A DNA stretch of 64,000 nucleotides from assembly GCA_009760855.2 (NCBI GenBank), contig WPIO01000036.1, positions 1,755,001-1,819,000 of the forward strand. Reading direction: 5' to 3'. The position numbers and the translations under genes were made by a program. Source of the stretch: Cristatella mucedo. Its lineage: Eukaryota; Bryozoa; Phylactolaemata; Cristatellidae. This document shows, piece by piece, positions 6,400-40,595 of the stretch (the first letter of the stretch is position 1; each line of letters starts with the position of its first letter). Under the pieces are notes generated by a model. That model was not told the DNA's origin. It saw only the letters and a program-made list of their open reading frames with translations, and ran no database searches.

Positions 6400-6640
6400 C
6401 CCCCCGACATTCCCCCAGGACATTTCCCCCTGGGTAGGATATTCCCCCTATATGGTTTAGAGTTTAGGTTTTAGGGTTTAGAGTTTAGGATTTTTAGGCT
6501 TTATTGTTTTAGGGTTTAGGGATTTTAGGGTTTTTAGGGTTTAGGGTTTTTAGGGTTTAGGGTTGAGGGTTTTAGGGCTTTATGGTTTAGGGTGTAGGGT
6601 TTTTGGGCTTAGGGTTTTTAGGGTTTTAGGGTTTAGGGCC
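6400..6640. repeat. Poly-C plus interstitial telomere-like repeats
   Basis: A poly-C run (about 6402-6415) and three C-rich ACATTCCCCC-type motifs lead into 6455-6640. That stretch is dominated by TTTAGGG, TTTTAGGG and TTTTTAGGG with some decayed units (TTTAGAG, TTTATGG). It is not a uniform TTAGGG array, so this is a degenerate, interstitial, telomere-like repeat and not a true telomere. Confidence 0.75.
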
Positions 6641-12587: not shown

Positions 12588-12955
12588 GTGAGTCGGGATG
12601 CTGCCGCTGCCTCCATGCTGCAGCCTTCTCCTTTGCCTCCATCCTACCGCTATCTCTTTCTCCTCCTCCTCCTCCTCCTCCGATGAAGCCTTCTGCCGCC
12701 CGCCCCCTTCGACTGCCAGCCACCTGCTTCGCCCGACGCCGGCTCGCCCACTCTGCTCCGACGCCTTCTCCATCTCTGCCTCCTCCCCCTGCTCCGACGC
12801 TGCCTCTCCCAAGCTGCTGCCTCTTCATCTTCTGCAGCTGCCGGCTTCCTGCTGCCACCGCGAAGTCCTGCACGATCCACCACTCCCCCACCTCACCGAA
12901 TCCCACAATCCCCCTGTGTGAGCATCTAGTACTGACTTTTTCTTTTCCGTTTCAG

Positions 12956-13659
12956 CCGAAGTGCCACTGGTTCGGCAGCAGCAGCAGCAGTTGCATCTGC
13001 TGTCTGCTCAGCAGCAGCAGCAACAGCCCGAGCGGCTCGTGTTCATCAGCTACCACTGGGACATGCAGAGCAAGGTCGAGGAGCTTCGGCGGCTGCTCGA
13101 GGGCGCCGGCTTCGTCTGCTGGGCCGACGTGGCGCCAATCGTGACGCTGCCTCGCGGCAGCAGCAGCCTGAGCAGCCGCAGCATGGGCAGCGGAGGCGGC
13201 GGAGGCCTCGTCGGAGGCACCGGTGTTGGCAGCGGCGGTGCCGCCGTGGCAGTTGCAGCCTCGGACGGCGGCGGCGGCATTGACGGCGGCAGCGGCGGCC
13301 GATCGAGCCGCGGCATGCGTCAAGCGGCAGCCGTTCTGTGCTGCATCACCCCCAAGTACCTGCAGAGCGACGGCTGCGCCAAGGACCTGACCCTGGCCGA
13401 GTCACTCCGGAAGCCGCTCGTGCCCGTCATGCTGCGGTACTGTCCGTGGCCGCCAGAGGGTGCCCCGGCCACCGTCCGAAAGATCCTCGCCCGCTGTCAG
13501 ACGCCCGTCGTAGAGCTGTACAACGACAAGCTGTTCAAAGTCAACTTGAGTGCCGTCGTCGACCGAGTGCTCAAGGTGGTCGCGTCAGCCGCGTCGTCGG
13601 CGGCCGCCACCACCGTCGCCAGTGTCAGCGGCAGCGGAGCACCGACGTCGCCCCACTGA
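12956..13659 (+). CDS. TIR-TIR protein, last exon with split TIR domain 2
   Basis: Acceptor TTTCAG|CC follows a good pyrimidine tract and is phase 1. It encodes residues 191-424 and ends in TGA. A short poly-Gln linker (198-202 and 209-214) precedes TIR domain 2: RLVFISYHWD (217-226) is the signature first strand, then GFVCWADV (242-249), VLCCITPKY (317-325) and PLVPVML (344-350). Between CWADV and the next helix, about 52 residues (258-309) are Gly/Ser/Ala-rich and absent from ordinary TIR domains. At the usual catalytic site the sequence is GCAKDLTLAE, with Asp334 in place of Glu, so this domain may be non-enzymatic. The C-terminal tail is Ala/Ser/Thr-rich. The insertion is GC-rich and reads as coding in this frame. 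Confidence 0.85.
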
Positions 13660-20877: not shown

Positions 20878-21049
20878 TGCCTCGGCGTTGCACTTTTAGC
20901 TGCTGCGTCAGTTCGTTTTCCGAGCAGGCACACGCAGAAGCTGCTCTGCCTGCACCGAAGAGCTGCCAAAGGTCACGCCCGTTCGGGGTCGACCACCCGA
21001 ATTAAAACCAATCGACCGCTCCGAGATCGCTTCCTGTCTCTGCAAACAA

Positions 21050-21715
21050 ATGGTTGCAGATGAACAGGCCAAATTCCGCCGGCATTGCGGCAGCCCAATT
21101 GCTAGGCTTGTCTGTCGTGAGCGTCGCAGTTGCCACATTACTCCACTTCTCGCTGACCTGCACTGGATACCAGTCAAGCAACGGATTGAATTCAAGGTCT
21201 TGTCGCTCACTTTTAGGTCCCTTCATTCTATGGCTCCAACCTATCTCTCAGACATGCTACCCCATGAGGCCAAGCATCGTACCACCCGCTTTTCGGAATC
21301 CAACAGTCTACAAATACCTCGTACAAACCTTAAATCCTTTTGGAGATCGTGCATTTAGTTCGTATGCTCCCAAAGACTGGAACTCCCTCCCGACCTGCGT
21401 CAGAACATCCCCTGACCTGACCACATTTAAAAGGAACTTATATAACACACACATTTAGGACAGTATATAGTGGGTCCCTGTGATTCGTCCTTCATGTGCT
21501 TATGCGTGCCGACGCTGTGCATGCTGCCACTAACCACATTTGCATGCTGGCCCTGTGCATGTCAACCCTAACCATATTATTCATTTCGTTTGTTTTTCAA
21601 GCATGATTTTACTTACCATTCAATTGCATTTCCCTTTGAAGCAAATGTAAAGCGCCTAGAAAGAGATTAAGTTCTCAGAGGGCGCTTTATCAAGTACATT
21701 AGTATTATTATTAGT
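21050..21715 (+). mobile_element. LINE-A 3' end: reverse transcriptase C-terminus plus tail
   Basis: Two adjoining frames encode CRERRSCHITPLLADLHWIP, LSLTFRSLHSMAPTYLSDML and, after a frameshift near 21345, FGDRAFSSYAPKDWNSLPTC. This is the characteristic C-terminal region of L2/CR1-type reverse transcriptases. The 3' UTR follows (CTGCCACTAACCACATTT). The element ends GCGCCTAGAAAGAGATTAAG, TTCTCAGAGGGCGCTT and ATT repeats. It is 5'-truncated and frameshifted, so dead. It gives the best-ordered view of the family's 3' end. Confidence 0.88.
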
Positions 21716-22540: not shown

Positions 22541-24365
22541 CCACCGCAAATCGGCAGCATGAAGTTCCAACTAGTATTGAATAATATATATTAATAATAA
22601 TAGACTGAGCTATATTTAAAGCGTACCCACACATGTTAATGCAGTTCTGCTCATGCGTTCTCATGAAGTTCCTGGCCAATACCGCAATCTACTTCATTCC
22701 ACAGCGAAGCGAAAGAAATCGAAAGCGAAAAGCTTTTTTCTGATTGCCCACGACTTCGCACTCTATGGCGAGCGTACTCGCATGGATTCACTTGCATTGG
22801 CACGGGCGTTCTCATGCAATGCACTGTAGTCGACTGCATAGACCCGCAAAATACAGCAATCCACTGCAACAGAATAAATACAAATAGATTGCGCCGATCT
22901 CCAGTTTCTATTGCATATTAAAGCACGCTGTGTTTTGTGCACACACGTGAAAATTCAAGCCATTTCGCATCCGCCCCCCACATTCTGGTGATTTTCGGCA
23001 ATAGCCCGAAATGGCATGGGAAAGTACGGCTTGAATCCACTTGAATCCGCTGCAAATCATTCTCAAATCTTCGTCAATGCGAAGCTCCAATTTATACTGC
23101 ATGTAAGACTAGACTCAGTTCAATTCGACTTAGTTCAATGTGCAGCCACGAAATCGTGCGCAACTGCGCATGCGCGTTCTCAGCCAATGAAAATGCCCTG
23201 CAATCGCCAGCAACAGCCTGGTTCCACAGCCCAATCTACTGTAATCCACCGTATAGCGAGCAGAAAGCGTACATTAAAAGCTCTAATCAAAATTGAACAT
23301 TGCTCTGCTCTTTGTGTACTGTGTACTCGCACAATTATACTGCAATTTCCACGAGAATTCTGATGCAATGCACTGTAATCGACCGCAATGGCCGGAGCCA
23401 ATATCGCAATCCACTGCGTTTTGCGACAAGAATGACCCGAAGTCGACTTTTCAATGCTCCAATTTTGCGATCCGCAACAATCTGTGACATATAGACCACA
23501 AATTGGCTGCGCGAAGCTCCAATTCTCACTGCATATTGCATTTATCTGTGTTCCAAGAGAAACCACTGCACTTTCAAGCTATTTGCCCGTCGATTGTCGA
23601 CCATGCTAGGCAATTGACGGTCTGCAGCAGGGGCCAATGCCTCAATCCGTGGCAAATCGAGGCGAAATCGGCTGCGAGAAGCTCGAATTCTCATTCCACG
23701 TAACATCTCACTGCAAATCACCAGAAATCAGCAGGGCCAAGCTCAAACTTTTCTTGCGTAATAAAGCGTACTGTATTAGATTGTAGCCACATCATTTCAG
23801 CCACTTGCTCACGTAGAATCTCACGCAATAAATGGCAATCGACAGCAATGGCCCCGGGCCAACGCCGCAATCCGCGGCAGATCCAGCAGAAATGGGCAGT
23901 GTGAAGCTCTACTTGTAACTGCATATACGATTTCTTTTTTTTCTAAGCTTAACTTTGGAATTTTAAGCTTTTTTGCTCGTTAATTGCTATTTATGTACTT
24001 AATATAGCAAATAGAACTATTTCGCTAGTGTACCACATTCCACAAGATTCTGTCACGATCTACTAATCGGCAAGAAATACGACGGGAAGATCGACATCGA
24101 TTGCAAATTACACCACGTGACCACATAGGTTCACCACGTTTAAAGTGTTTCCAATAGATTTCACTCTTATATGCTCGCGTGAACTCTTGAAAAATGCACC
24201 GTAATGGGACCAAATAAACCCAGAAAGCATTCAGTGCGAGAAGCCCAAATGTCAGTTGCGTAATACATTAAGTTTAGTTTCTGGTGTACTCGCAAAACTT
24301 AACGCGCGTGCAAAATCGAAAATCGGTTTCGCGAAGCTCCAACTTGGCTGCATAGTGCAGCACCA
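22540..24365 (-). repeat. Degenerate array of 160-190-bp monomers
   Basis: A recurring cassette: GAAGCTCCAA-like box (about 22565, 23083, 23513, 23680, 23902, 24335 and weaker ones), then a GCATATTAAAGCACRCTGTG-like box, then CAATCGACWGCAATGGCC-like boxes and CGCAATCCRCTGC. Spacing is irregular, about 160-230 bp. The same boxes occur reverse-complemented at 56.9-58.8 kb. I give it the minus strand relative to that array. No coding potential. Confidence 0.75.
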
Positions 24366-25320
24366 ATTATAAGAGCTCCGTTTCAGTCTAGGCTCTTCCG
24401 TCTCCCCGGACGTGACAGCCACTATCCGTCATTTGCACATCTGCGAGTGGAATGTCTGAGGCTTAGGGATCTTAGCGAGTAGCCGAGTTACAGCAAGTTT
24501 TTTCAGCATCGACAGTCCGAACATTGAGATCAGTCAACACAAGTTGCGTAACTACCAGAACAGCGATTCCATGCCGCCATGTTCAGCACTCGCGACTGTC
24601 TGAAAGAATCAATTACAAACCTAAGTAGTATAGTATATATATAGTATATATTATAGTATTACATCATAGAAGTATATAAGTATTAGCACATGTTTTTGCA
24701 TCAAATTCAGCGAGCTTGATGTCTTTCTTAGCATTTTACGTACGCAGTAAACGAAACACGATCACATGGTTGGTAGGATGGGCAAGATAATTTTACCATG
24801 AGCGTAATTACATTTAAAATTAGTTAATGTGCTATGAGGTGATACGTAGGGTGTTACTCTTAAATTCGCATAGTCTTCAGTCCCTGTAGAGATAACATTC
24901 ACAGAGACATCACCATTCGTATATTTAGATAGCGAAGGTGCAGCTTGCATTTTGGTGAAACATCAAACCGCTTGGCGGCTGTGAGAAGTTACAAAAGTTA
25001 TTCCCCCTCAGCCACTGCATATATTGTAGGCATTAAGAAGTGCCAGGCGGACACACGTAGCACCTTTAATTAGCTTGGGTGCATTCCTAAAATTGGAACG
25101 AGCAAAGGGCCAAAGCAAGTGTTGAGCATATGCTGCCCACGTTTTTTACACAGGACTCTCAATTTCAAGCTATACAACAGCTACCGGTTATTCATTCCGT
25201 TGTAGCACCTAAAGTTGCTCACCCAGCAGCTGCACAAAGCGTCACTTTCTGCGTCAAGCGAACGGCGTTCATTTTTTGTCTAGCATGTAGTTCGAGTGCA
25301 TGCCGGCTCCTCTGATGAGC

Positions 25321-25475
25321 CTGTGATGTGGCATGGACACAGGCCGGTAACCCACTGGTGGCCAGATGGTGGATTCACTACCAGGGTCGGCCGGTGCACA
25401 GCTGTGGCCCGCCTGTGATGTGGCATGGAGGCAGGCCAGTAACCCGCTGGTGGCCGGATGGTGGACGGGAGCACG
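25321..25475. repeat. 92-bp direct repeat, two copies
   Basis: CTGTGATGTGGCATGGACAC at 25321 and CTGTGATGTGGCATGGAGGC at 25413 each begin a near-identical segment (CTGGTGGCC, ATGGTGGA). It interrupts copy 1 of the duplication and is absent from copy 2, so it arrived after the duplication. Confidence 0.8.
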
Positions 25476-26000
25476 GGAGGAGACGGGAGTTGAGTGAGAG
25501 TAGAGGCCGAAGGGAGCCGTGGGCGCTCTTGGGCTCCGTGCGTTGGTAATAAACTGTCGGTGCTGGGCATCGGCTGGCTCTCTGCTGTGCGAACAAACTA
25601 CATAGCAGAACTTTGATTTCACTAAGCGGGATTCTGGGCTGCTCGGCTCTGGATATCCGGCCTTCAAGCTTGGCCGAGAGCCATCCACACTGACTTCGTT
25701 TCAGATACGTGAAACAGTTGCACCGGACTAACCAAAGTTGGCCCCCTCGCGGTGCGGTCTCAACAGAGCCAGGGTAACGCGCCCGGCCACAAGGGAAAGT
25801 GTGCTTAGTCGAGTGAGTACGCCAAGGCAAAAGCTAAAATATTCATCCTATAAACAGTATATTCGCAATCATTTGTACCCGCCCATGCATCACATCTAGC
25901 TAAAAAGTCATCTAACGGCGAAAGCAAATCAACCTGCTTTCAGGTTCCTACTCGTCAAGCTTTGGCGAGTAAGAATAAGTTTGGTCAGCAAAACGATTAC

Positions 26001-26043
26001 GTCCCTGGGTGGGCTCGAACCACCAACCTTACGGTCAACAGCC
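26001..26043 (-). pseudogene. tRNA-Asn pseudogene, 5' half deleted
   Basis: Matches the 3' half of the intact gene at 30320-30393: acceptor 3' strand, T arm with intact B box, variable loop and anticodon GTT. The sequence then jumps to downstream flank. A deletion of about 37 bp removed the D arm, the A box and the acceptor 5' strand. Confidence 0.88.
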
Positions 26044-26599
26044 GCAATGTGTGAGTTACGCTCGTGTTAATTTATGCACCAGTAGCCCTCATTAGCATGC
26101 TAGGGAGGGTTCGGGTTGTTACCATTTGGTATTAGAAGCGTGGTGCCTGTACGTAATGAACTGGCGCGATACAATTTGAAAGCTTTTAACGGGTATACAA
26201 TTCGCATTCTCGGACAAAGTGCCAAAAAAGAGAGAGAGCATTACCTTTCTCAAATAGAAAAAATTCAAAAATCATTGTGCTGAAATGCAGGCCTCAAGAA
26301 CTTGCCACTGGTTTGCGGCCTCCGCGGCCCCGGCGTCTTCAGGCGACGAGCCTGAAGCCCACGGGACATGCCTAGCTAACCTGGCTATGGCGGAGTCGTT
26401 TGGCGTTCAACGATAAACTTTCTGAAATGAGCACAGTGCCAATAGTGCAAAGTTCAGCATGGTAGCCAGCGGCAGCAAACCAAAAACTTGGAGCCTTAAT
26501 CATTCCAATTCCACGCCCTGAGCGCCAAGCTCCAAACCTTACACCCCCAACACTTTAAACGAAAGATGTCGTTTTAATACGTGATATCAATATGTAGGC

Positions 26600-27660
26600 A
26601 CATATATGCATGTTCTGGAAAGGAGTGACATCTAGGACATCGAAAGACTGTTGTTATTTTTGCTACGAAATAGTAGCCAGGAGCAGATAAATGCTACGCT
26701 AATCAATGGCCGAGGCGTCATAGAAGCCAAGGCCGCGACGCAGCAGGCAATCGGTCGTGCTCCAGCAGACGGCCTTTGGATTTGAGCTGAGTTTTGACCC
26801 GCGCCGTTGAGCTCTACGAGAGCTGTCGCCGCGTCAAGGCTGCATTTGAACACATGCAACCCTTAGACAATGTCTAAAATTCTCACATTTGCTGCAGATA
26901 TGGCAACTTTACGCGAAGTCATTGGCGGTCCGGGGCGCTGCCGCGTTACGCTGCACTAGGCATAGCTGGGCGCATTGGTGGTTAGAGTACGCGCGGCTGG
27001 CCGCGATTCCAAAACTCGGAGCTTCACCGGTCACGCGTCCGAAAAGACTTTCTCCGTTAACAGCACACTGTTTGCGGCCTAGAGTCCCGATGCGAGACCC
27101 GCTGCGCTCCGTTTGCACCATGCTAAAGTGCAGCTAGCTGTAGTGTCGCGACCGATGAGTGAGTGCAATGATTCTACACCAGGTGACGCTTCTAACGCTG
27201 CGAGGGCGCAACCGCAACAGCCAAAGAGCGTGCAAAAAACGACGACGTCGGTGACCGCTTTTCGCGTAACGCACGGTCGTTGCAAAGCGTCGTTGCATCC
27301 CCAGAGCTACAGTGCATCCCCGCACTGACAAAAAGGACAATTAACGGCACGAATCCGTCCTTGCAGGCGAGCGAATGCCTGCTTGATTCCTCCAAAGCTA
27401 ACGTCGCAGAGCGCCGCTGCTGCTGCTAGCAAGCAACGTACGGATACGTGCCTAGACACAGTGACGAGAGCAAAACTTGACAGCTATGAGGAACGGGTGC
27501 GCCTTAATCAAAGCGCCCGCCTGGATAATTCTTTGCATTCCATAGCCGCAGAGGGCCGGATCAGTACAAACACTAACGCGCACGCGTCGCTAACTGACAC
27601 TTCGGCCGGTACGTTATATCGTCGAAGACCTCCGTCGAAGCCCTGGAATACGACGCGCGG
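26600..27660. other. Centre of duplication copy 1, no gene seen
   Basis: Several open frames overlap on both strands, the longest in-frame ATG one at 27383-27667. The aligned part of copy 2 (about 32540-32720) does not preserve it, which argues against coding. Confidence 0.4.
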
Positions 27661-28074
27661 TTCGTAATTAATATAATGCAGTAATCGCTAATAATATTTG
27701 TCGCTTTGTTCTGGTTGTTACGCTTGCCGGCACTTTAAACCTTCAAAAGTAGCTTGTGCTGGGCCTCTGAGATCGATGATGATGAAGGCAGCCAGAAACT
27801 ACAGTAAGTCTCTTCAGAAGACTGCGTTTAAACTGAATGATGTTTGGATTTCTACGTAGTTAAGTTTCTACTCATGAACATTTTTTGGCACTTTGGCCAA
27901 AAAGACGAATTTTGTACCCGTCAAAAGCTGCACAGCTACAGCTTGCAGGATTCAGACCTGCGGTGCATCACGCTTGTAGCATCGATGGGCAATAACTCAA
28001 GGCCTCCTTAACATGCTAATCTTAGGTTGCTGGTGCATTAGTTAAGATCAGCGCAACACTGCTAGCAGATAGTT

Positions 28075-28148
28075 GTCTCTGTGGCGCAACTGGTTAGCGC
28101 GTACGGCTGTTAACCGTAAGGTTGGTGGTTCGAGCCCACCCAGGGACG
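28075..28148 (+). tRNA. tRNA-Asn (GTT)
   Basis: 74 nt including discriminator G. Acceptor stem GTCTCTG/CAGGGAC (one G-T pair), D arm with an A-box-like TGGCGCAACTGG, anticodon stem TACGG/CCGTA around loop CTGTTAA (anticodon GTT), T arm GGTGG/CCACC with loop TTCGAGC. A TTTT Pol III terminator follows at about 28153. The sequence is close to the well-conserved metazoan tRNA-Asn. No intron and no genomic CCA. It delivers asparagine to AAC and AAU codons. Confidence 0.95.
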
Positions 28149-28784
28149 TATTCATTTTGCTTGGGAATTAGCCTGAGCTGTGAGCCTCACGAGAGATGGT
28201 GTACGCCATGGGTGCTTTGGGTCACTGGCCCCCGGAGTCTGTGCCCATTCGATGTGTTTGTTCTAGAGTCGCCCAGAGATGCGGATACGGAAATGCATCT
28301 CAACAGAAGGAGATCTTTGCTTTTTCAGAGTTCCGTTACTATTGGCATAACAGCGTGCATTTGTGCTGATCCAGTCGCTAGCCCGGATATAGTGTTCCAA
28401 GCTATGTCCCGGTTTTACTCTGTGTTTGCAGAGACTATCCCGGTTATGAGAGCTGTGTTTTTTGCGATCTACTTCTGTGCGGACTTGGATGTTGCGGTAC
28501 GTCATTTGAACAGTTGTGACTGGCCTGTCTGAGGGTCTGAGGCATTTACAGAGAGTAGCCTATGCAACAAGCTTCTAATAGTGTCGACAGCTGAAGCATT
28601 TAGACCGGTCAGCATAAGTTTTGTAACTACCAGACAAGCGATCCTACAGCGTTGCTCAAAACTCATTACAGACTGAAGGAATCAATTAATATCATCCGTA
28701 ATAATACATTTGAACAGCACATTCCCAAAATATTAATGTCTTTGTAGGCATTTTGCGTATGCTGTAAGCGAAGCATGATCAAAT

Positions 28785-29408
28785 TGTAATGTAATGTATT
28801 TCCGTCTGCAACTCCACAAAGCAGGAAAGACTATGTGGGTGTTACGCAGGAGAGTTTTGGATAGCACAATCACAGCCTAAGCGGCTTTCGGTACGCATTC
28901 GGTAGCCGACAGAGTTCATCTCACGCAACAAAGAGAAAGTGGGAAGCAAAGCAGAGTCAGGTGAGCAGTTGAGGTAGTGAATGGCATGGAAGTAGCAGCT
29001 CAGGACCGCTAGAAAAGAATGAGCCATATTTGGCAGCAGGAGAGTAATTGTCGTTGCGTAAGAATCGCGGATGCAAGTTCCACAGTCTAAGACCAGCAGA
29101 GCTAAAGCTTCTGTCGCCAACGGTCTTTAAGCGCTGGAATGGAACAGCTAATTTATCGTCCATACAGGACCTGAGGGCAGGAGGAGGTTGAAACTGGTGC
29201 AACAGTTCAGCTAAGTATAGAGGAGCCAAGACGCGGCCGGGCCTTGCGGGTCAGCGTAACAACCTTGTTCTGCATCCGCTGATCAACCGGCAGCCATCCT
29301 AGCTCTTTTAGCAAAGGTGACACGTGCTCAAACCCCTGTGGGACTTGAAGACCAGCCTTGCAGCCATATCCATAGCCAGCTGCAGTGGCCCTAGCGGCTT
29401 TCTTTGGT
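28785..29408 (-). mobile_element. LINE-B 3' end inserted in the duplication
   Basis: Minus-strand frames give FEHVSPLLKELGWLPVDQR, LYLAELLHQFQPP, LKTVGDRSFSSAGLRLWN and a C-terminus around REMNSVGYRMRTESRLGC. That is the C-terminal part of an L2/CR1-like reverse transcriptase, distinct from LINE-A. The 3' end is CGGAAATACATTACATTAC on the minus strand. Copy 1 has uninterrupted sequence at the matching site (about 24772), so insertion followed duplication. Confidence 0.87.
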
Positions 29409-30319
29409 AGGTAGGATGGGCAAGATAAATTTACCACGAGCACAATGCCATAACAATTAGGTAACATGATATGAGCCGATACGCAGGGTGTTGCTCTTAC
29501 ATTCGCGTAGTCTTTGGTCCCTTTAGAAACAGCTATACATCAACATTTGCATATTTAGATAGCGACGGTCCAGTTCACATTTTAGTGAAATATCAGACAG
29601 TTTACCAACTGCGAGAAATACCAAAGCGATTCCCAGCCACCGAATGTTTTGTAGGTATATAGAAGTTTACCAGACGGGCACACATTGCGCCTCTCACCAG
29701 GTTGGGTACTCCTGAAATCGGAACATGCAAAGGGCATGTCTTAAGCAAATACTCCCTACTATTTTTAACTGGTCTCTCAATTCCGAGCGAGTAACCAGCT
29801 ACCAGCCTTTGATTCAGTGGCTGCACCTGCAGTTGTAAGCAAGGCAACTGCACGGAGTGTCACTTCCAGCCACATTTACAGCGTTCGTTTGTCTACCAGT
29901 TCTTAGGTTTTTCCCAGAGGGGGAATCGAGTGACTGATCGTCTGAACGGCCCAGCGCATATAAACCTGCCAGCTTGGCTGAGAGCCACCCACCTACAAGA
30001 ATGCCCACTGACTTCGCTTCATGTAAGTGGAATAGCTGCACCGTGCTAACCAAAGTCTGACCCCCTCCCCACAGCAGTGCAGTCTCATCAGAACGATAGT
30101 GGCAGCCACCCGCCAGGGCAAGGCTGCTTAGCCGGGTGAGCAGGAAGGGGTGAAAGGTCAATGGCCGTTGCATTTACAGCCTACGAGCAAATTATTCGTA
30201 CCCGTCCACGCACCACGTCCGACGCTAAGAGAAGACGTCGAGCGGAGAAAGGAAAATTGCCTGCTTTTGCAGATTCTTACTCGTCAAGCTTTCTTAGTTT
30301 GTTCAGCAAAAAAAAAACA

Positions 30320-30393
30320 CGTCCCTGGGTGGGCTCGAACCACCAACCTTACGGTTAACAGCCGTACGCGCTAACCAGTTGCGCCACAGAGAC
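30320..30393 (-). tRNA. tRNA-Asn (GTT), second copy
   Basis: Mature-region sequence appears identical to the gene at 28075-28148, on the opposite strand, with all stems intact. A run of ten Ts directly downstream is a strong Pol III terminator. The flanks differ from the 28075 gene on the 3' side beyond about 14 bp but are related on the 5' side. Confidence 0.95.
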
Positions 30394-30867
30394 TTCGATG
30401 GCAATTGTGAGTTACGCTTGAATTAACGTATGCAGCAGTAGCCCTCATTAGCATTCTGAGAAGGTCTTGGGTTGTTACTAATTGGTGTTAGAAGCGTGGT
30501 GCACTGCAGGTAATGAACTGGCATGTGATGCACTCGGAAAGCTTTTAACGGCTATACAATTCATATTGTCGGCCCAAGTGCAAACGAAAAACATTCAAAA
30601 GTAGAACCTTTCTCATATAGAAAAATCCAATAAATCGTTTCGCTGAAACGCAGACCTCTGAAAAACTGCCAGTTTTTTATAGCTTCTGCAGCTATGCGGT
30701 TATGAGGTCGATCGCCAGGGACACGAACAGCTAAGCTATTGCGGCAGCGCTTGACATTGAACGGCGAATTCTTTCTGCAACGGGCACAGTGCTAATAATA
30801 GCATAGAGTTCAGCAAGCTAGCCAGCGTTTTTTAACCACAAACTCTGAAACTTACACATTACGTTGG

Positions 30868-31035
30868 AGACCATGCCTTTAGTTCCTATGCTCCCAAAGC
30901 CTGGGACTCACTAGCGACACATACCAAAACTTCCCCTGACACGACAACATTTAAAAAGAAGCTTAAAATGCACCTTTTTATTACAGCATTTGGTGGGTCT
31001 TTGTGATTTTTCATTCGTGTGCATGTACCTGTTTA
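30868..31035 (+). mobile_element. LINE-A fragment, upstream half
   Basis: Begins TTTAGTTCCTATGCTCCCAA (equivalent to FSSYAPKAWNSL) and continues into the 3' UTR (GGTGGGTCTTTGTGA). It stops at a LINE-B insertion and resumes at about 31365. Confidence 0.75.
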
Positions 31036-31322
31036 CATAATGTAATGTAATGTATCTCCGTCAGTAACTCCACAAAGTCATAAAGACCATGTGGGTGTTA
31101 CGCAGGAGAGTTTTGTATAGCGCACTCGCAGCCTAAGTGGCTTTCGGTACGCATTCGGTAGCCAACAGACTTTGTCTCACGCAGCAAAGAGAAAGTGGGA
31201 AGCATAGCAGAGTTAGGAGAGCAGTTGAGGTAGTGAGTAGCATGGAAGTAGCAGTTCAGGACCGCTGAAAAAGGCGTGCCATAGTCGGCAGTTGGAGAGT
31301 AGATGTCGTTGCGTAAGAATGC
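31036..31322 (-). mobile_element. LINE-B 3' end nested in LINE-A
   Basis: Starts ATAATGTAATGTAATGTATC, the same end as the copy at 28785. It contains GGTGTTACGCAGGAGAGTTT and CGGTAGCCAACAGAC and stops near GTTGCGTAAGAAT. The minus-strand reading matches the LINE-B C-terminus (KSVGYRMRTESHLGCECAIQ). Confidence 0.83.
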
Positions 31323-31364
31323 CTGCCTCTTGTGGATGTTACCACCAAACGTTGAGTAATGCTT

Positions 31365-31388
31365 TCTATGCAGCATCTGTAAAGTGCC

Positions 31389-31462
<74 letters not shown>

Positions 31463-31505
31463 CAGTTCTCTGAGGGCGCATTATAAATGTATTCTTAATA
31501 CTATT
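31365..31505 (+). mobile_element. LINE-A tail carrying an internal (GA)n expansion
   Basis: CTGTAAAGTGCCTAGAGA enters about 36 GA units (31390-31461) and emerges as TTCAGTTCTCTGAGGGCGCA. In normal copies only CTAGAAAGAGATTGAG separates those flanks, so the microsatellite grew from the GA-rich part of the LINE tail. Confidence 0.85.
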
Positions 31506-31700
31506 AATATTAAAATCCTATGTCCTAAGCGATCCGCCCTAAGCCTTACACCCAAACCCTTAAGCAAAGTATATCTCAAAACGTGCTGTCAATAGATATG
31601 CATTTGCATACATGTTCTGAGGACGCTGCACACTTCAGAACCCGTATGACGAACATTAGGACGAAACAGAGGCCTGTCAAAAATTCTACGCTGCCATTCA

Positions 31701-31704
<4 letters not shown>

Positions 31705-31770
<66 letters not shown>

Positions 31771-32050
31771 CTCTCTCTGTGTCTCCCTCTGTCTCTCTCT
31801 ATCTCTCTGTCTCTGTCTCTCCCTCTGTCTCTCCCTCTGTCTCTCTCTGTCTCTCTCTGTGTCTCTCTCTGTTTCTCTTTCTCCGTGTCTCAATCTGTGT
31901 CTCTCCGTTTCTCTGTGTGTCTCTCTCTCTCTCCGCGTCCCTCTCTTTGTCTCTCTGTGTCTCTCTCTGTCTCCGGGCCTGTCTTTCTGTCTGTCTGTCT
32001 TTCTTTCTCTGTCTCTGTCTCTGTCTCTCACTGTCTCAGTCTCTATCACT
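31705..32050. repeat. (CT)n imperfect microsatellite
   Basis: About 340 bp of CT with scattered TGTCTC, CCTCTG and TTTCTC variants. Long Ser/Leu or Arg/Glu open frames across it are artefacts. Confidence 0.92.
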
Positions 32051-33121
32051 ATCTGTGACGGTGTGCTCTAGTCGTTGCGTCTCAGGGACATTACTGTTGT
32101 TCGGCAAGCCACCGCTGAGCCCGAGGGGAAGGTAATCTCAACGCCCACGACCTAGTAAAAATTATATATAGCCACGATGAAAAACTTAACTCAGCACTAA
32201 CTAATACCAACTTGAAATGAGTCTGCCTGACGTCGTCTGCCTAGTCAGCCGTAATGTGCCTGGCACACTTGCCTTGCCGGAGAGTTCGTTAGTACTATTT
32301 TATAATCTTAATATTTTATTTTTTATAATTTTATTCTTTTATTGTTTTGTAGCTGCTTTTGGAATTTGGAGTGCTCAATCTTTGCCTTTTGATTTCTGCG
32401 AGCGTCTGGTATATAAAAATTGCACGCACTGCACCTCTTCACGCAGTAGCGAGGTAGTACACGGAAACTATCTTTTGTCGGCTGTAGAAGTGGAAAAAAT
32501 TGAATTTAGCTGCAAGACGTGAGAACTACAAAGCTTGACGGCAATAAGAAATGCCTATACCTTAATTGAAAGCCCTCGTAGTTAACATAAGCGCCGCTCA
32601 ATCCGTAGCCACAGAGGGAACGTGTGGTCAGTGTGTAGCCTAATTTACAAGTCTGTAACCAACACCTCTGTCGGCCTTCTGTTCACTCTAAACCTTATAT
32701 TATAACATGCGGCTCGTAAGGAGTATAACTCATAAGCCGGTAATAATCCTTATCAATTTATTGATCTGATCGATTTGGCATGCCAGCTTTTAACAAGTAA
32801 CCTGTGCTGGGCCACTGAGCCTGATGACGATAACAGCCAGAAGGAAGCCAGAGTGATTCTTTAGAGGTCGGCGTTCAGCACAATTTCATCTGGATTTATA
32901 ACTGAGAAAGATCCGACTCGTGAACGCGTGTTGAAAATTGGGCTGATATCGTGAATTGCTTACCCGTCAAAAGCTGTCAAATACATCAAGCCGGGTTGCA
33001 ATCAGCAGTGCTCCACGCTTCTACCAATATTAGGTAACAAACAGAACCCTCCTAAGCTATCACTAAATTTATGCCGCCGTTGCGGGAGATTATACGAGCG
33101 TAACTCCGAGTGTTAATCGAA

Positions 33122-33195
33122 GTCTCTGCGGCGCAACCGGTTGGCGCGTACGGCTGTTAACTGTAAGGTTGGCGGTTCGAGCCCACGCAGGGGCG
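33122..33195 (+). pseudogene. tRNA-Asn (GTT), T arm damaged
   Basis: Aligned end to end with the intact genes and retains anticodon GTT and the A box. The T stem reads GGCGG/CCACG and loses two pairs, and the acceptor stem gains an extra G-T pair. It may be transcribed, but probably does not fold as a standard tRNA. Confidence 0.8.
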
Positions 33196-33361
33196 TATTT
33201 GTGTTGCTTGCCAGTTCAGCTGAGTTGGGCTGTGGTCAGTATGAGAGATGGTGTACGCCATGGCTACTGTTCGAAGCACCTATAGCCTCGCTCACTGTCT
33301 TCTATAAATCAGTCGGCTTTGGATATGGGGATGCTATCTTAACGTATGGTTGCTCAAGGAC

Positions 33362-33362
<1 letters not shown>

Positions 33363-33434
<72 letters not shown>

Positions 33435-33647: not shown

Positions 33648-34423
33648 TATAATAATAATAATGCACTTGATAAAGCACCCTCAGAGAACTCAATTTCTTT
33701 CTAGGCGCTTTACATTTGCTTGAAAGGGAAACGCAATTAAATCGTGAGTAATATCATGCTTGATAAACAGCATGAATAACATGCACAGGGTCAGCATGCG
33801 AGTGTGGTTAGTGGCAGCATGCACAGTGGCAGCACGCACAAGCACATCAATGACGAATCACAGGGACCCACTAAATGCTGTCCTAAATAGGTGTGTTTTT
33901 AGGTTCCTTTTAAATGTGGTCAGGTCATGGGATGTTGTGACGCAAGTCGGGAGTGAGTTCCAGGCTTTGGGAGCATACGAACTAAATGCACGGTCTCCAA
34001 AGGATTTGAGGTTTGTACGAGGTATTGGTAAACTGTTGGATTCCAAAAAGCGGGTGGTACAATGCTTGGCCTGGTGAAGGAGTAGATCTGAGAGATAGGC
34101 TGGAGCCAAAGAATGAAGTGACCTAAAAGTGAGCGAAAAACCTTGAATACAATCCGTTGCTTGACTGGTAGCCAGTGCAGGTCGGCGAGAAGTGGTGTGA
34201 TGTGGCAACTGCGACGCTCACGACAGACAAGCACAGTTGCGGAGCTTTGCACCAGCTGCAATCGCCTGATCGCACATGCCGATTGGCCAGCAAGCAGTGA
34301 GTTACAGAAGTCGAGACGGGATGTCACAAATGCATGGACCCACTTAGACGTGGTATCCTTATCTAAAAAAAGCCCGATTCTTAGCAATGTTATGTAGCTG
34401 AAAGTAGGCAGACTTAATTGTAT
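33648..34423 (-). mobile_element. LINE-A 3' end inserted into SINE-A
   Basis: The longest LINE-A fragment in one piece. The minus strand encodes LVHAFVTSRLDFCNSLLAG-like residues (WVHAFVTSRLDFCNSLLAG), CHITPLLADLHWLPVKQRI, HSLAPAYLSDLLLHQAKH, LKSFGDRAFSSYAPKAWNSL and TTFKRNLKTHLFRTAF, then the 3' UTR and tail. It is an L2/CR1-like reverse transcriptase C-terminal region with stops and a frameshift. It is 5'-truncated, as expected for target-primed reverse transcription. Confidence 0.9.
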
Positions 34424-34449
34424 ACCTAGTGCGCCATCACGGCTCACCA

Positions 34450-35390
34450 GCCTCAACGAACCTGTCAATAGTTGTCTGCATATACCAGCGATGTGGCACG
34501 GCCGCGACCAAGCGGTCCAAAGCCAAGGTCACGCCTGACCGTAACGAATGGACCGTCGTATCAGGAAATGCTATTTAGCGTTTCGTTCAGCTCTGGACAA
34601 AGAGCGCTGACGCGGTCGAATGAGTAGCCAACCTTGCCAGCGGGCTGATGGCGTAGCCGGTATTTTTCCCGTGCGTCAATGCAGGGTCTAGCGTGCTCGC
34701 TCCTGCTCCTGGTTTTAGGCTTAAAGATGTGAGTGCAGAAACCGCTACAGCTACTCGCGCTGCTCGTACCGTACAGAACTGCGACCGAAGACGGCAACCG
34801 ACCGCTTGAGAGTGACTCTATACAGCACACGAAAAGTGCCAAAAAGGAGGTTAGGTTCCCCGAGGGCGCTACGCTTGTACTATCGTCATTACTAATATTG
34901 CTATTTAGTAGCCTCAGGCATTTGGCGCGTGAGAACAGCACGGTGGGTCGCAGTCGTACGTAATATAGGAATTTACTGCCACGCGGGAATTGCGACGCGA
35001 GACTCGATAGCGGCGAGCGGGCGGTTCGAGAGCTCTCGGAAACGGCGAGAAACGGCGAGACCGGAGGACAAAGCGCAGGTCGGACAGCTGGGCTGACGAT
35101 AGCCAACGAGCTGAACTGTCCGCCGGAGAGGGCGGAGAGATTTTGAAGTTGATTCAATTCCTGACGGGGAAGCTCGAGCAGAACTAGTGGGATGTGACGT
35201 TGTAGTAGTGGCATGTGTGGGATAGTGAGTGAGTAGTGAGATGTGGCAATGTAGTAGTGGGATGCGTGGGATGTGGGATAGTGAGTGAGTGTAGTGGGAT
35301 GTGGCGGCTAGGCCCCGTCGATGACCGGCCTGACGAGTCTGTCTCCGAGTTTTGTTGCACACCGTCCATAATTCATTTAAAATAAATACA
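34450..35390. other. Spacer with a long uncertain open frame
   Basis: A 217-codon open frame lies on the minus strand at 34561-35214. It covers a decayed LINE-A tail (about 34840-34910) and a GTGGGATGTG repeat, has no recognisable domain and is probably chance. A degenerate tandem repeat of GTGGGATGTGG and GATAGTGAGTGAG units occupies 35165-35330. Confidence 0.45.
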
Positions 35391-36489: not shown

Positions 36490-36803
36490 GCGCTAGTTCG
36501 CATGCGCCCAAAGCCTGGAGCTCACTTCCGGCTTGTGTCACGACATCTCCTGACTTGTCCACATCGAAAAAGAAATTAAAAAAACACCTACTCAGGACAG
36601 CATTTAGTGGGTCCCTGTGACTAATCCTTTAGTGCTTATGCCTGCTGACCCTGTGCATGCCACACCCCCTAACAATGTTATTCTTATTGTTTATTGAGCT
36701 AACCACTAACCATTCGATCGTGCTTCCCTTTGCAGCATATGTAAAGTGCCTAGAAAGAGATTGAGTTCTCCGAGGGCGCTTCGTCAAATGTATTATTATT
36801 ATC
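36490..36803 (+). mobile_element. LINE-A 3' end
   Basis: Encodes a short C-terminus (APKAWSSLPACVTTSPDLST and LKKHLLRTAFSGSL), then the 3' UTR and a tail with CTAGAAAGAGATTGAG, TTCTCCGAGGGCGCTT and ATT repeats. 5'-truncated. Confidence 0.85.
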
Positions 36804-37881: not shown

Positions 37882-38003
<122 letters not shown>

Positions 38004-38339
38004 GTGCCGGGCGCTGCCGACGCCCGAGGACCCGAGTCTCCGGTTCGAGAGCTGGGACGCTGTTTGTAGGATTTTCTTTTTCGAGTTCGTTCGCCGCCTC
38101 GCGGCTGCACGGGCCGCGCCGTGCCGATTCGACGCGCTTGGAGGAGCACGGCACTCGAGCGAGCGCAGGGTCGCCCGCGCGAGCGAGCGTCGCCCGCCGA
38201 GTGGCCACCGATCGGCGCCGTTCGCGGTTCGTCGCACCAGATGCGGTCGCTAGCGAGCCCGCTCGAGCAGACGCTCGAACACGCTGCCGTAGGAGATCGA
38301 CGTCGCCCCCCCCATAAGACTCGAGTGCGCTCTAAGGGG

Positions 38340-40005: not shown

Positions 40006-40595
40006 ATAATAATAATAACAATGTAATAATGCACTTGATAAAGTACCCTCAGAGAACTCAATCTCTTTCTAGGTGCTTTACATTTGCTGCCGAGGAAACA
40101 CGATCGAATGGTGAACGGTATCATCCTTGATAAACAACATGAATAACATGGTTAGGGGTGACATGAACAGGGTCAGCATGCAAATGTGGTTAGTGGCAGC
40201 ATGAGCAGTGTCAGCACGCATAAGCACACGAAGGACCCACTAAATGCTGTCCTAAATAGGTGTATTTTTAAGTTCTTCTTAAATGTAGTCAAGTCTGATG
40301 CTGTGACGCAAGTCGGAGTGAGTTCCAGGCTTTGGGAGCATACGAACTAAATGCACGGTCTCCAAAGGATTTGAGGTTTGTACGAAGTATAGATAAATAG
40401 TTTCCAAAAAGCGGGTGGTACGATGCTTGGCCTGGTGGAGGAGTAGCTGTGAGAGATAGGCTGGAGCCAAAGAATGAAGTCACCTAAAAGTGAGCGACAA
40501 GACCTTGAAGTCGATCCATTGCTTGACTGGTAGCCAGTGCAGGTTGGCGAGAAGTGGCGTGATGTGGCAACTGCGACGCTTACGACAGACAAGAA
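40006..40595 (-). mobile_element. LINE-A 3' end
   Basis: Reverse complement runs from CACGCCACTTCTCGCCAACC (equivalent to HITPLLA) through the KSFGDRAFSSYAPKAWNSLR region and the 3' UTR to ATTACATTGTTATTATTATT. Several frameshifts. Confidence 0.87.

Follow-up and report, generated by a model that had tools for sequence, protein, structure and literature searches.

Positions 24367–33268 of a 64-kb window of the Cristatella mucedo genome (contig C299, 1755001–1819000; assembly of 572,011,866 bases in 688 contigs) hold two direct copies of a roughly 4-kb unit, each of which carries one tRNA-Asn sequence on the minus strand and one on the plus strand. Positions below are those of this window, the whole stretch of DNA that was analysed, unless a contig is named. 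The arrangement very probably arose by an inverted duplication, a tandem duplication of the resulting pair and the decay of two of the four copies, in the birth-and-death turnover of a multicopy tRNA family.

Two direct units and four inverted arms

Comparison of the window with itself by BLAST paired 24367–28216 with 28444–33268 through six collinear direct blocks (E 1e-6 to 1e-110; Table 1), and the aligned blocks of the two units are 62–77% identical. A global alignment of the entire units was set aside after it misplaced the first 500 bp, and block alignments were used instead. When blocks were re-aligned locally and each set against 100 shuffles, nine of the ten direct comparisons exceeded every shuffle, with scores of 28–210 vs. 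shuffled maxima of 14–18; three of the ten overlap, since they cover one block and its two halves. Adjacent, collinear and in the same orientation, the homologous blocks make up a tandem segmental duplication; past the right edge of unit 2, a GA run begins at 33364.

It is scarcely credible that the similarity is limited to the tRNA genes and that the remainder consists of dispersed repeats, the pattern that a first-pass annotation of the sequence had named as contrary to its proposal of a tandem duplication. The region is rich in interspersed and simple repeats, and a block near 24.7/28.7 kb recurs at other loci; however, the collinear direct blocks, which stand above their shuffles, contradict such a reading. 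Three queries from the locus (26600–27470, 27471–28070, and 29405–30319) were searched against the whole genome, and two of them match only this locus at that search's sensitivity: 29405–30319 (915 bp) found itself and unit 1, and 27471–28070 (600 bp) found itself plus the copy-1 arm. Of the three other arms the 600-bp query missed two (copies 3 and 4), as a search that misses diverged copies would. The recurring block is direct block 2, which lies within a fragment (about 24705–24785 / 28699–28787) with further matches at 36709–36798 and at three or four other loci of the genome; because this fragment is a shared repeat, block 2 is weak evidence by itself. Large draft genomes often contain false duplications or haplotype copies that were assembled next to each other. 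The probability that the two units are such an assembly artefact is negligible, since they differ by 23–38% in aligned blocks and carry insertions found in a single unit, whereas almost no difference would be expected between artefactual or allelic copies.

Two repeat insertions (28788–29404, and 30861–31508, where the AG run lies) and a stretch that contains a CT run make unit 2 the longer. The first insertion contains sequence that recurs in inverted orientation within the window (28785–29390 is 84% identical to 54036–53453); the start of the second is taken from the shuffle-tested alignment, and the BLAST block extends to 30897. The stretch private to unit 1 at 25286–25660 is probably a later repeat insertion; within it, 25363–25602 has a similar sequence (72%) elsewhere in the genome, at L013. 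The query from the other private stretch of unit 1, 26600–27470, gave three short matches elsewhere (68–81%).

The inverted component of the self-comparison joins all four tRNA copies through arms of about 320–375 bp, which consist of 265–290 bp of 5′ flank, the tRNA sequence and a T-run (25987–26303/28161–27806, 27790–28158/30684–30310, 30310–30665/33205–32857, and 25982–26300/33213–32857). All four inverted flank comparisons exceed all 100 shuffles (scores 54–83, maxima 14–17). The arms end about 10–15 bp past the tRNA (10–18 by BLAST), and opposite-strand copies part after a common TTTTGCT (GTGTTGCT in copy 4), 13–15 bp past the tRNA; a profile of the arm edges in 20-bp bins, for which the 3′ sequence of copy 1 was started two bases early, was too noisy for refining the breakpoints. 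Beyond the first 16 alignment columns of the 3′ flank, same-strand copies remain alike (65 of 88 sites, or 74%, identical between copies 1 and 3; 50 of 83, or 60%, between copies 2 and 4) and opposite-strand pairs are identical at 29–40 of 79–92 sites (34–44%). Copies 1 and 3 have both flanks in common, as do copies 2 and 4; opposite-strand copies have only the arm in common, and these reverse-complement arms with shared ends constitute an inverted duplication. tRNA-like sequences are frequently retroposed. Insertion of the copies by retroposition, or as tRNA-derived short interspersed elements, is nevertheless very improbable, as the copies share 265–290 bp of 5′ flank, which lies outside what an RNA intermediate beginning with the tRNA would contain.

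The first-pass annotation had proposed a tandem duplication of a unit of about 4 kb, inverted pairs sharing 5′ flanks over hundreds of bp, and an end of the similarity about 14 bp past the tRNA 3′ end, near the Pol III terminator; it had also expected ordered direct matches and inverted matches in a self-comparison made in both orientations. The blocks and arms described above agree with each of these proposals.

Table 1. Units, homologous blocks, private stretches, inverted arms, and tRNA-Asn copies of the duplicated region.
Feature	Positions	Strand	Basis or remark
Unit 1 of tandem duplication	24367–28216		Collinear homology with unit 2; right edge between 28216 and 28443
Unit 2 of tandem duplication	28444–33268		Block alignments; right edge possibly ~33343 by eye
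Direct block 1	24367–24630 / 28444–28703		BLAST
Direct block 2	24716–24770 / 28733–28787		BLAST
Direct block 3	24767–25285 / 29405–29898		BLAST
Direct block 4	25661–26536 / 29965–30897		BLAST
Direct block 5	26496–26617 / 31504–31619		BLAST
Direct block 6	27471–28216 / 32529–33268		BLAST
Unit 1-only stretch	25286–25660		Gap between BLAST blocks
Unit 1 stretch, no counterpart found in unit 2	26618–27462		Block and shuffle alignments
Interspersed-repeat insertion, unit 2	28788–29404		Breaks sequence continuous in unit 1
Composite insertion, unit 2	30861–31508		Repeat fragments 30864–31026 and 31041–31320; AG run 31390–31460
Unit 2 stretch, no counterpart found in unit 1	31620–32515		Degenerate CT run 31705–32044
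Inverted arm round copy 1	25987–26303	−	BLAST vs. 28161–27806
Inverted arm round copy 2	27790–28161	+	BLAST vs. 30684–30310 and 25987–26303
Inverted arm round copy 3	30310–30684	−	BLAST
Inverted arm round copy 4	32857–33205	+	BLAST vs. 30310–30665
Copy 1, tRNA-Asn 3′ remnant	26000–26044	−	Alignment; genome hit L031; uncalled by ARAGORN and Rfam
Copy 2, intact tRNA-Asn(GTT)	28075–28148	+	ARAGORN (28074–28149); Rfam 65.8 bits; T4 run
Copy 3, intact tRNA-Asn(GTT), same sequence as copy 2	30320–30393	−	ARAGORN; Rfam 65.8 bits; T10 run
Copy 4, decaying tRNA-Asn	33122–33195	+	ARAGORN; Rfam 32.5 bits

Fate of the tRNA-Asn copies and order of the duplications

Copies 1 and 2 stand head-to-head about 2.0 kb apart in unit 1, copies 3 and 4 head-to-head about 2.7 kb apart in unit 2 (2–2.8 kb had been estimated), and copies 2 and 3, the only intact ones, tail-to-tail across the unit border, 2.15 kb apart. 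The proposal of four tRNA-Asn copies running −,+,−,+ stands by alignment as far as order is concerned; it does not stand as a count of genes, since ARAGORN and Rfam see three (copies 2, 3, and 4, all above the Rfam tRNA cut-off of 29 bits) and copy 1 is a remnant. What is left of copy 1 is the 3′ part of the gene, 45 of 74 bases, 44 of which match copy 2; beside it, the 5′ part of the gene and the adjoining flank are missing in a gap of 36 alignment columns. A Pol III terminator (T4 or longer) follows soon after the gene in copies 1, 2, and 3; no T4 run is present within 60 bp of copy 4, which carries 7 substitutions in 74 bases. This is well under the flank rate (p = 9e-6) and suggests that copy 4 may have decayed late. 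Copies 2 and 3 show no difference in 74 bases, and their 5′ flanks differ by 29% (pairwise local alignment) or 37% (four-way alignment); the binomial chance of such identity at the 29% flank rate is 6e-12. Genome-wide constraint would suffice for this identity, because 17 of 29 tRNA-Asn hits in the genome are identical and three more score as a single mismatch.

The simplest history supported by the sequence would place the inverted duplication first and the tandem duplication second. It rests mainly on shared boundaries: the arm end points are closely similar in units 1 and 2, and homology outside the arms is found only between same-strand copies, for which reason the inversion is placed before the tandem step. 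Parsimony on 251 gap-free columns of the 5′ arm gave 13 informative sites for (1,3)(2,4) vs. 5 and 4 for the alternatives, and (1,3)(2,4) alone was preferred in 1908 of 2000 bootstraps. The order given by the first-pass annotation is in this way upheld by the common arm boundaries, and the four-arm tree agrees with it without reaching significance.

The opposite order, in which a tandem duplication came first and each unit then gained a separate inverted copy, or in which one unit's arms were later converted against each other, is improbable. It draws on arm distances that are near a star and on an approximately unbiased (AU) test that leaves other topologies standing, but arm ends that nearly coincide in both units are not what two independent events should give, and the same holds for the match of same-strand copies outside the arms on both sides.

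Several results weigh against an inverted duplication followed by a single tandem duplication. The likelihood AU test on the three arm topologies gave p = 0.86, 0.19, and 0.22, and the other orders are not rejected. Kimura two-parameter (K2P) distances are 0.28 between copies 1 and 3 on the 5′ side, 0.37–0.41 between opposite-strand arms, and 0.53 between copies 2 and 4, which are the most distant pair of arms though sisters in the scheme; in the four-way alignment of 5′ arms, copies 1 and 3 are 78% identical and every other pair 59–64%. No homology was detected between 26600–27470 and 31450–32530 (score 13, maximum of 100 shuffles 16). Divergence between the units is also uneven, at 388 of 1566 sites (25%) in the left blocks and 212 of 633 (33%) in the right blocks (Fisher p = 4.5e-5; the count omits the short block 26502–26617, and local alignment trims ends). 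Rates may have differed, the left halves may have undergone gene conversion at a later stage, or the history may be more complex.

Other tRNA-Asn loci and other features of the window

The 29 tRNA-Asn hits of the genome search, in which counts for large families are lower bounds, comprise 17 with the same 74 bases (copies 2 and 3 included), three at one mismatch, and nine degraded. Eight neighbouring pairs lie within 20 kb of each other on one contig: the three at this locus are all opposite-strand, and the other five, three of them on C44 and one each on C111 and C299, are all same-strand. What sets this locus apart, among the pairs examined, is the inversion.

A search of the genome for more units had been advised, and its outcome was divided: kb-scale duplication of tRNA-Asn was found at two other clusters (C44 and C111), where, as here, genes were copied along with kb-scale flanks, and, at the sensitivity of the search, no further unit with flanks like those here turned up beyond shared repeats. 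In the C44 cluster (271.0–285.8 kb), blocks round two genes reappear in the same order round two more, amid many repeats. The C111 pair (18.710–18.714 Mb; L041/L042, 18.707–18.715 Mb) is 95% identical in 267 bp round the gene and 66% farther upstream, hinting at local conversion or uneven constraint. The C299 gene pair at 3.547–3.551 Mb is like both C44 gene types, though its order is not collinear with that of the C44 units. Unlike the locus described here, all of these have same-strand neighbours, and no flank homology with this locus was found in them beyond shared repeats. More broadly, some other tRNA-Asn loci match one another over hundreds of bases and fall by eye into flank subfamilies; none of the 25 other tRNA-Asn hits shares flanks with this locus beyond repeats (1.5-kb flanks, short tRNA matches filtered out). 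Nor were copies of arm plus spacer, as expected of a mobile element with the tRNA arms as terminal inverted repeats, found elsewhere with 27471–28070, 29405–30319, and the 25 tRNA-Asn loci, in a search that misses diverged copies.

BLAST matches reaching about 40–55 bp into some 5′ flanks had suggested an upstream promoter element common to all tRNA-Asn genes; this was dropped when, over the last 150 bp of 5′ flank, 4 of 100 local alignments (25 loci × 4 arms) beat all 30 shuffles, about the chance level. Over the first 60 bp of 3′ flank, 7 of 100 beat all shuffles, a slight excess that T-runs could explain. A tRNA-Asn-like sequence at L029 (1510–1583), with anticodon GCT and called tRNA-Ser by ARAGORN, is probably a decaying copy. 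Another ARAGORN call, a tRNA-Gly at 37980–38065 in the window, is probably false: it lies partly on the end of a GCG run (about 41 units, 37882–38004) and is not reported by Rfam.

The window has several further features. Two collinear inverted matches (65 and 69%) link 22788–23983 with 58396–57319, about 35 kb away, and the former region has internal direct repeats (23278–23986). A repeat in three copies (82–87%; 21106–21711, 33649–34232, and 40024–40593) overlaps open frames 20900–21358 (+) and 33920–34528 (−); it gave no Pfam match, and it resembles the 3′ end of a long interspersed element (LINE). A degenerate array at 6454–6638 (consensus GGTTTAG / GGTTTAGGGTTTTAG) is presumably telomere-like. 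The open frame 12922–13659 (+) matches the TIR_2 domain (E 6e-13) and had one weak match in a search of PDB sequences (E 8e-4); Pfam searches with nine of the 54 open frames of at least 130 aa returned nothing but this domain.

History of the locus and comparison with known systems

In the proposed history, a segment of about 370 bp (265–290 bp of 5′ flank, the complete tRNA-Asn gene and its T-run) would have been copied in inverted orientation nearby, perhaps by replication-based template switching, to give a head-to-head pair (<- ->) about 2 kb apart. A stretch of about 4 kb with this pair would then have been duplicated in tandem, and interspersed repeats, simple repeats, and indels would later have made the units unequal. 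One tRNA per unit would have decayed, copy 1 through deletion and copy 4 through substitutions and terminator loss, and purifying selection may have kept copies 2 and 3 intact. It is also conceivable, and in our judgment unlikely, that the tRNA gene itself caused the inverted copy: a replication fork would have stopped at the tRNA as it was being transcribed, its nascent strand would have moved to another template at the Pol III terminator, and the break would have come to lie at the edge of the transcription unit.

Searches of the literature made without the species name found nothing on this locus, and several known systems resemble it in part. Many eukaryotes are described as having parallel and antiparallel tRNA pairs, clustered pseudogenes, rapid turnover, and relocation linked partly to chromosomal rearrangement (PMC2888827). 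The clusters described there are alike in their homogeneous pairs, parallel, head-to-head or tail-to-tail, mixed with pseudogenes; the copies described here, 2–2.7 kb apart, exceed the 1000-nt cluster limit given in that account, and their flanking homology makes the order of events legible. The tRNA-Cys cluster of Arabidopsis (PMC10701932) likewise has tandem units in which a tRNA gene is accompanied by a pseudogene and transposable elements, but its units are 0.4 kb, vs. about 4 kb here, and the abstract of that account says nothing of an inverted pair. Fold-back inverted duplication, described in humans (PMC3907307), similarly yields an inverted and a direct copy with a spacer between; the cases described are large rearrangements in patients, in contrast to the old copy of about 370 bp at this locus. 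For yeasts, tRNA genes are described as sites of replication fork pausing and rearrangement (PMC5368702).

As an instance of tRNA-gene turnover the locus is clear but ordinary, a well-supported example of a known phenomenon. It is one more locus at which tRNA genes go together with rearrangement, a link cited for budding and fission yeast (PMC5368702), and if the tRNA gene did cause the inversion, a large eukaryotic genome would here have preserved a natural fossil of inverted duplication induced by a tRNA. It offers a readable case history in which tRNA genes would have been born by inverted and then tandem copying and have been dying by deletion and point decay, with survivors that are letter-perfect.

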